Of a DNA stretch of 64,000 bases, positions 26,220 to 51,064 are shown in pieces. A program made the translations under genes and the position numbers. The stretch's first letter is position 1, and each line of letters begins with the position of its first letter. The notes under the pieces were generated by a model, which was not told the origin of the DNA, made no database searches, and was given only the letters and a program-made list of their open reading frames with translations. Location: NCBI GenBank assembly GCA_000687695.1, contig JHWZ01000004.1, positions 124,001-188,000 on the forward strand, in the 5' to 3' direction. The stretch comes from Lachnospiraceae bacterium P6B14 (GTDB taxonomy: Bacteria; Bacillota; Clostridia; Lachnospirales; Lachnospiraceae).

Positions 26220-26319
26220 GAGGAAATTTTCATACGACTCGTCACGATGTCTGACAAGGTTCGAATTTTTCTAGACTTGAGCGACAAAAAATTTTTTTCG
26301 GCGCATTCTACAGCTGTCA

Positions 26320-26455
26320 GGCGATTTGATTATATATCCATCCGGGCACGCTTTCGCTTTTTTCCCGAGCGTCACGTTGTGCGCGCGGACAATACCCGCG
26401 CTGCGCAACGACGCTCGCGACACATCCCGGATGGTGATATATTTATCAAATCGCC
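26320..26455 (-). ncRNA. Candidate structured RNA element, copy 1
   Basis: One of three related elements. In minus-strand sense: outer helix GGCGATTTGAT/ATCAAATCGCC (plus 26320-26330 with 26445-26455), continued by CCATCCGGG/CCCGGATGG (26338-26346 with 26426-26434); then ATGTGTCG; helix CGAGCGTC/GACGCTCG (26366-26373 with 26410-26417); an inner hairpin GTTG..GCGCGG, loop GTATTGT; then AAAAAAGCGAAAGCGTGCC with a GAAA tetraloop. It lies in the 538 bp topA-dprA gap, which contains no gene. Expression is not shown. Confidence 0.55.
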
Positions 26456-26513
26456 TTTACGGCCCATGGTCAATCCATGAAAACATTTTGTATTCGCATT
26501 CAATAGTCTAGGG

Positions 26514-26674
26514 AGAGGTGGTTCGAGAAGCATATAACTGTCCGGGATGTGTCTTGAACGTCGGTGCGTAGGTGGCGTATTTTGCCACCATGCACCGCTA
26601 CGTTCAAGAAAAGAAGCGTAAAAAACTCTTCGAGTTTTCAGCGTGCCCGGACAGATATGCACTCGAACCACCTC
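26514..26674 (+). ncRNA. Candidate structured RNA element, copy 2
   Basis: Same family, opposite orientation, 58 bp from copy 1. Outer helix GAGGTGGTTCGAG/CTCGAACCACCTC (26514-26526 with 26662-26674), GCATAT/ATATGC, CTGTCCGGG/CCCGGACAG (26538-26546 with 26646-26654); then ATGTGT; helix CTTGAACG/CGTTCAAG (26553-26560 with 26601-26608); hairpin CGGTGC..GGTGGC with loop GTATTTT (26577-26583); then a stem AAAACTC/GAGTTTT and GCGTGCC before the closing arm. No promoter could be assigned in the 58 bp between the two copies. Confidence 0.55.
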
Positions 26675-26691
26675 GACAATAGTTGCAACAG

Positions 26692-50841: not shown

Positions 50842-50843
50842 AA

Positions 50844-51057
50844 GAGCAATTCGAGATGCATATCACTGATCACATTCGGAATACTAAACGAGCAATTCGA
50901 GATGCATATCAACGTACAGGATGTATATCATACGTCGTTGCGCAGCGTGTGTATTTTACACGCGCACAACGTGACGTATGATAAAAAAGCGCAAGCGTGC
51001 CTGTACGTATATGCACTCGAATTGCTCGAATTAAAATCCATGCACTCGAACTGCTCG
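50844..51057 (+). ncRNA. Candidate structured RNA element, copy 3, with a second nested pair of arms
   Basis: Core 50889-51028: helix CGAGCAATTCGAG/CTCGAATTGCTCG (50889-50901 with 51016-51028), TGCATAT/ATATGCA, ACGTACAGG/CCTGTACGT (50912-50920 with 51000-51008); then ATGTAT; ATCATACGTC/GACGTATGAT (50927-50936 with 50973-50982); GTTG/CAAC; GCGTGT/ACACGC with loop GTATTTT; A-run and a GCAA tetraloop before GCGTGCC. The outer arms recur at 50844-50865 and 51040-51057. TTTTGTTT after the right outer arm and TTTTAG on the other strand could make it a bidirectional terminator between convergent genes. Confidence 0.55.
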
Positions 51058-51064
51058 ATTTTGT

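Follow-up and report, generated by a model that had tools for sequence, protein, structure and literature searches.

The three structured elements of the window (the whole 64,000-nucleotide stretch of Lachnospiraceae bacterium P6B14 DNA that was analysed) belong to an abundant family of dispersed hairpins, found tens of times per genome in several genera of a single bacterial family and without a match in Rfam. The family is probably made of short, non-autonomous mobile hairpins, which share one fold with a free stem sequence and whose shape would be read by a protein acting in trans. It is best read as a previously unseen variant of the dispersed mobile hairpins (REPIN- or MITE-like), its main rival being a functional RNA.

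Two of the elements (c1 and c2, Table 1) are placed head to head between the genes of a type I topoisomerase and a DprA-type protein (the topA-dprA gap), and the third (c3) is flanked by the genes of an ArsP_2-like exporter and of HSP20. The places, strands and common plan that a first-pass annotation, made from the letters of the DNA, had proposed for them were borne out by the limits of the covariance model, and the arms, the GTATTNT loop and the GCGTGCC strand that it described are all present; it was also right in giving GNRA loops to two copies, the third (c2) having a longer hairpin at that place. In a three-row alignment of c1, c2 and c3, 27 of the 59 predicted pairs show a two-sided change that keeps the pair. 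As RNA, each of them folds better than 200 of 200 dinucleotide shuffles (z scores in Table 1), and as DNA both strands of each also beat the shuffles (z -8.9 to -11.7), so that fold energy alone cannot tell which molecule matters. The small hairpin of c2 belongs to a type (AAAACTC-GAA-GAGTTTT, its variants or its reverse complement) that occurs in two different loops of the elements and in both orientations, being also found in the inner-arm loops of L015, L019, L021, L022, L025 and L031 and in L160 (positions 104-280), a distribution resembling that of a nested unit which inserts by itself.

Table 1. Hairpin elements in the window, their small hairpins and neighbouring arm remnants.
Feature	Positions	Strand	Basis and context
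Copy c1, whole hairpin element (P1, P2, P3-P5 inner arm, small P6 hairpin)	26317..26455	-	topA-dprA gap; covariance model R1 match, 151.6 bits; RNA fold z -8.4
c1 P6, 2-bp hairpin GC-GAAA-GC	26350..26357	-	pattern match, alignment
Copy c2, whole hairpin element	26517..26675	+	head to head with c1, 61-base spacer; R1 130.4 bits; RNA fold z -11.5; pair geometry
c2 hairpin AAAACTC-TTC-GAGTTTT, replacing the P6 tetraloop	26622..26638	+	sequence, fold, alignment
Copy c3, whole hairpin element	50891..51029	+	ArsP_2-like / HSP20 gap; R1 149.6 bits; RNA fold z -10.4; neighbours
c3 P6, 2-bp hairpin GC-GCAA-GC	50989..50996	+	pattern match, alignment
5'-arm remnant, AAGAGCAATTCGAGATGCATATCA-like, upstream of c3, whose 5' arm it duplicates	50842..50865	+	by eye
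3'-arm remnant, CATGCACTCGAACTGCTCGA-like, downstream of c3	51037..51063	+	by eye

The family is far larger than the three copies first noticed. Its core motif, AAGCGNAAGCGTGCC, has 29 exact matches in the 2.69-Mb genome (none for the reversed-pattern control). A covariance model (R1), built from 28 of these 29 copies and c2 of the window (L017, nearly identical to L014, was omitted), finds 61 copies in the same genome, and a broader one (R2), built from 108 matches, one of them a reverse-strand artefact, finds 64. R2 matches are present in 20 of 39 genomes of the same genus, own included, with 59 copies in G061, 55 in G002, 45 in G023, 30 in G022, 24 in G015 and 21 in G008. In an order-wide sample, 27 of 295 genomes (own included) and 13 of 129 genera have matches, all 27 genomes falling in one family; these counts are lower bounds, at most 11 candidates of each genome having been scored. 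A phylum-wide sample gave matches in 4 of 398 genomes, namely the own genome and three already found, all of the same family. One genome of another genus (G271) carries three nearly identical copies (L335, L336 and L337) whose outer arms are related and finish close to CAGGCC and CCTG, which suggests recent spread there too. Two exact-pattern scans of viral sequences gave no match, nor did blastn searches of viruses, phages and plasmids, which have low sensitivity; a pattern scan of named genomes, a collection that may omit near relatives, gave a single match in a Citreicella contig, taken as chance.

Each copy is a single long hairpin of 139 model positions (about 210 nt in one other genus, G326, when the outer helix is included), composed of outer helices (P1 and P2), an inner arm (P3-P4-P5) and a small helix, P6, at the junction. 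The junction strand reads ATGTG in one subfamily and CCTG in another, the inner arm bears a bulge of two bases and a loop of the GTNTTNT type, and P6 is a 2-bp hairpin with a GNRA-type loop, followed by a short conserved strand that leads into P2. Terminal inverted repeats are present (CAGGCG...CGCCT in G326 and CAGGCC...GGCCGT in a subfamily of the own genome). The G326 loci (L326, L324 and others) have outer arms that enclose an internal loop, approximately CAGTGCGAG versus CGCATGTGC, which may be a further conserved recognition part. Over 108 rows, two-sided changes occur at 47 of 51 pairs, 93.7% of the cells are able to pair (60.1% when shuffled, at most 45.5% when slid) and the covariation score is 0.791 versus 0.189 for shuffled rows, all these values coming from rows aligned to the covariance model, so that the alignment leans towards the model structure. 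The further copies with compensatory changes that were to be expected of a covarying family are thus at hand.

Some features of this fold would suit a true multi-copy functional RNA (a 3' UTR stabiliser, a terminator-like element or a trans-acting RNA), whose transcribed fold would keep the copies, their spread being secondary; as an account of the family this is rather unlikely, for reasons given below. The first of these features is the P6 loop, which has a purine at the third place in 226 of 227 readable copies (239 distinct copies, 12 of them not readable) when read by a script that required a 2-bp stem and a loop starting with G and ending with A. The loops are GCAA (111 copies), GAAA (80), GCGA (12), GAGA (10), GGAA (10), GGGA, GTAA and GTGA (1 each) and a single GCCA. 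A looser reading gives 234 of 238, 17 of 255 being unread and some duplicate and artefact rows still included. Moreover, in many copies two Watson-Crick pairs of P2 and P5 are swapped for tandem G.A pairs, and the unpaired core is kept across genera.

The window has no match in Rfam 15 at the gathering score, and permissive thresholds give either nothing or chance matches, none of them plausible, in agreement with the first-pass annotation, which could not assign the elements to a named family. In the published literature searched, mostly open-access, nothing was recognised as this hairpin repeat family, which is apparently undescribed. A kinship to IscB-linked RNAs, which had been offered as one idea, is not supported: no Rfam family scores, the TnpB domain (PF07282) is over cut-off in 2 of the 39 same-genus genomes, neither of them a carrier, and the flanking ORFs in other genera vary.

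The copies lie mostly just behind genes. As classified with a simple ORF caller, a gene 3' end faces 56 of the 57 classifiable copies of the own genome (61 in total), at a median distance of 20 nt and within 60 nt in 44 of them, and two of the 61 lie inside a mechanical ORF. A position right behind stop codons is also what a functional RNA of the 3' UTR could have, but the orientation to the neighbouring genes varies (both antisense to the element in 34 of the 57 copies, both sense in 14, convergent in 8 and divergent in 1), and in the topA-dprA gap neither a promoter nor a terminator rises above chance. Among the pairs of elements less than 400 bases apart in the fetched loci, 19 of 20 are head to head, one is tandem and none is tail to tail, some of these pairs being mutually orthologous and, therefore, not all independent.

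Mobility had been suggested for the three original elements, and several observations make it probable. Two copies at unrelated loci, L111 and L112, do not differ in any of 135 bases, and the identity ends sharply at ATCAGGCC and GTGGC(C/T)GT. In the topA-dprA gap (30 loci fetched, 26 readable), elements are found in four genomes, own included, and the site is empty in the other 22, a comparison of occupied and empty sites that the first-pass annotation had called for; there are two elements in the own genome (G000), two in G061, one in G002 and one in G015. By eye, the gap of G002 contains a 3'-half remnant at the place of c2, and in G015 the element is accompanied by three additional arm units arranged in tandem. 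The empty topA-dprA gaps that were inspected showed, by eye, no palindrome that could have served as a pre-existing insertion site. L055 is enclosed by the arms of an older element, which belongs to another subfamily. This copy and L057 (both in C3 of the own genome) are nearly identical, with flanks that are partly common. In seven copies of one subfamily, L111 and L112 among them, no target-site duplication was seen by eye.

The orthologous sites of G061 are occupied for 31 of the 61 own copies (44 of the 59 G061 copies were examined), and the identity between the orthologous elements falls into two groups, 95.5-100% at 18 sites and 57-86% at 13. Within the second group, P1 may be kept around a new core (c3 versus L291) or nearly everything differs (c1 versus L232). 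The elements are inverted at 4 of the 31 sites, one of them (L092/L319) being flipped and yet 95.5% identical. Inversions are also seen with G002, where the pair L046/L134 has related arms and is flipped, and the pairs L054/L141 and L097/L140 are both inverted and replaced. In addition, the P3-P5 arm of c2 reappears letter for letter in c1 of G061. Because most of the loci were retrieved through the element itself, turnover of the sites is visible from one side. The inversion of some orthologous copies relative to the genes is easier to reconcile with palindromic mobile DNA than with an RNA gene of fixed orientation. On the other hand, the 18 kept copies, a class picked by high identity itself, match or exceed the conservation of their near flanks (66-99%) and exceed that of nearby genes (82-96%), and copies so conserved do not simply decay; this counts against the mobile reading and fits an in-place function, as a functional RNA would have.

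Wobble and compensation were compared with those of an RNA of the same genomes, the SRP RNA (RF01854; matches in 36 of 39 same-genus genomes, 30 loci used), which is single-copy and less divergent than the hairpin family; the counts come from pairs with under 30% G-U. The SRP RNA has 80 G-U versus 9 A-C cells and 70 one-sided versus 197 two-sided standard changes. In the hairpin family (107 rows), 54 G-U stand against 43 A-C cells and 35 one-sided against 1809 two-sided standard cells, and in its copies from other genera (34 rows) the counts are 37 versus 17 and 22 versus 636. The ratio of G-U to A-C is 1.26 for the family and 8.9 for SRP RNA. From copy to copy, then, the arms vary as matched units and wobble is hardly favoured, unlike in SRP RNA, which weighs against a functional RNA.

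The near absence of one-sided states across the family could also be explained by mutation, if in a copied palindrome one arm templated the other and produced covariation without any selection on the fold. The in-place inversions and the tandem arm remnants would agree with such a process, although it leaves the conservation of the unpaired core and the loops across genera unaccounted for, and it is also at odds with the changes between the closest species, so it appears highly improbable. In 16 close orthologue pairs between G000 and G061 (950 stem pairs; only pairs with at least 80% identity were counted here and below), 14 changes are one-sided and 1 is two-sided, so that fast arm-to-arm correction is not supported. 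The one-sided changes include 2 to G-U, 4 to A-C and 4 from G-U, with 13 of 461 loop positions changed; going to A-C no less than to G-U, they speak against a functional RNA as well. The six more distant orthologue pairs, formed with G002 or G010 (348 stem pairs), behave differently, with 11 one-sided and 12 two-sided kept changes, 6 of the one-sided ones to G-U and 2 to A-C, and 11 of 174 loop positions changed. This set resembles ordinary compensation, step by step at one site, and favours an RNA-like helix, which speaks against the mobile reading; together with the GNRA-type loop, these stepwise changes keep an RNA role possible. On our reading, single mutations hit the copies, and those that are well paired persist or spread.

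The covariation had been presented in the first-pass annotation as direct evidence of a functional RNA. The covarying fold is real, but the RNA function does not follow, as the arms are matched almost without wobble and orthologous copies may be inverted. Strong covariation among repeated copies, then, need not prove a functional RNA, and wobble depletion, measured against an RNA of the same genomes, suggests itself as a test.

If the hairpins are mobile and non-autonomous, a mover should be encoded elsewhere. Four candidate families (Y1/RAYT, RVT_1, IS110 and TnpB) were searched in the 39 same-genus genomes, which are drafts, and none of them tracks the copies. Y1_Tnp (PF01797) is found in 10 of the 39 and in none of the carriers G000, G002, G061, G015, G008, G022, G023 and G026. 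That the family consists of REPINs moved by a Y1 (RAYT) transposase is, consequently, the least probable of the explanations considered, its absence from these eight draft assemblies weighing against the inverted pairs, the hairpin, the compensatory changes and the insertion into older copies that it would share with the REPINs of the accessible text of PMC3116915. Reverse transcriptase (RVT_1) is present in 17 of the 39 genomes and missing from G015, G008, G010, G022 and G061. IS110 is over cut-off in 20 of 39, with no match in G002 and G026 and matches below cut-off in G008, G010, G022 and G023. Around the copies of other genera the ORFs varied by eye from copy to copy, with no constant neighbour, and an ORF between two copies in L082, a candidate for an autonomous copy, reads by eye as a PHP-type phosphoesterase. 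The only copy found in G012 (L079/L343, G012:C26; L079:1501-1627) lies about 350 bases upstream of an IS110-type transposase gene, on the opposite strand, and one of the two G013 copies (L196/L128, G013:C43) is on a 4.2-kb contig that also bears a reverse-transcriptase ORF with a group II maturase-like look.

For a mobile hairpin family, the following mechanism can be proposed. The folded single strand, which is most likely ssDNA but could be RNA, would probably be recognised by a trans-acting protein through its shape and unpaired core, almost any pairing stem sequence being sufficient. New copies would insert shortly after stop codons, frequently onto or next to older copies, and there the core would be replaced, the arms exchanged or the element inverted. 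We infer the single-stranded intermediate, the recognition by shape and the protein itself, the mover not having been found among the four families searched. A bolder version, which is put forward tentatively, is that of a mobile class read purely by its folded shape, in which an enzyme unrelated to the tested hairpin transposases moves a three-way hairpin with free stems and a fixed unpaired core, targets older copies and swaps or flips their core, possibly via a folded RNA. An enzyme able to read hairpins by shape alone would handle DNA or RNA with tolerance of sequence, and its way of acting would have left a natural record in the swaps and flips seen at orthologous sites.

Several known systems resemble this family in part. 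The attC sites of integrons are read as folded single-stranded DNA, with a conserved shape and a variable stem sequence, and the hairpin family also keeps its shape while the stem sequence varies, although it occurs as dispersed single copies or pairs and not in cassette arrays. The guide RNAs of IscB and TnpB are structured, RNA-like repeats too, and the first-pass annotation had offered, as one idea, a kinship of the three copies to IscB-linked RNAs of mobile elements; unlike them, the hairpin family is without an Rfam match, its carriers have no TnpB over cut-off and no constant neighbour gene was seen. ERIC, YPAL/RU-2, RPE and Correia elements, according to the portions of PMC2229807 and PMC2267715 available, are mostly intergenic palindromes of about 100-170 bp, with tens of copies per genome and an unknown mover. 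Size, palindromy, copy number and intergenic placement are common to both, as far as those portions go, but these elements belong to other bacterial groups and have conserved terminal inverted repeats, whereas the arms are the most variable part here, where there is also a GNRA-type three-way junction and no target-site duplication seen by eye. REPINs, as the accessible text of PMC3116915 describes them, are dispersed, extragenic, inverted pairs that form hairpins, with two-sided compensatory changes and insertion into or next to older copies; the hairpin family is likewise dispersed, extragenic and covarying, and inserts in older copies. REPINs have two conserved 16-mers, and here there is a 139-nt three-way fold with a free stem sequence, which exchanges its core and flips in place, and no Y1 transposase was found in the copy-rich genomes. 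Nearly all close pairs are inverted (19 of 20) and the stems covary, yet the hairpin is formed within each unit and most of the copies are single.
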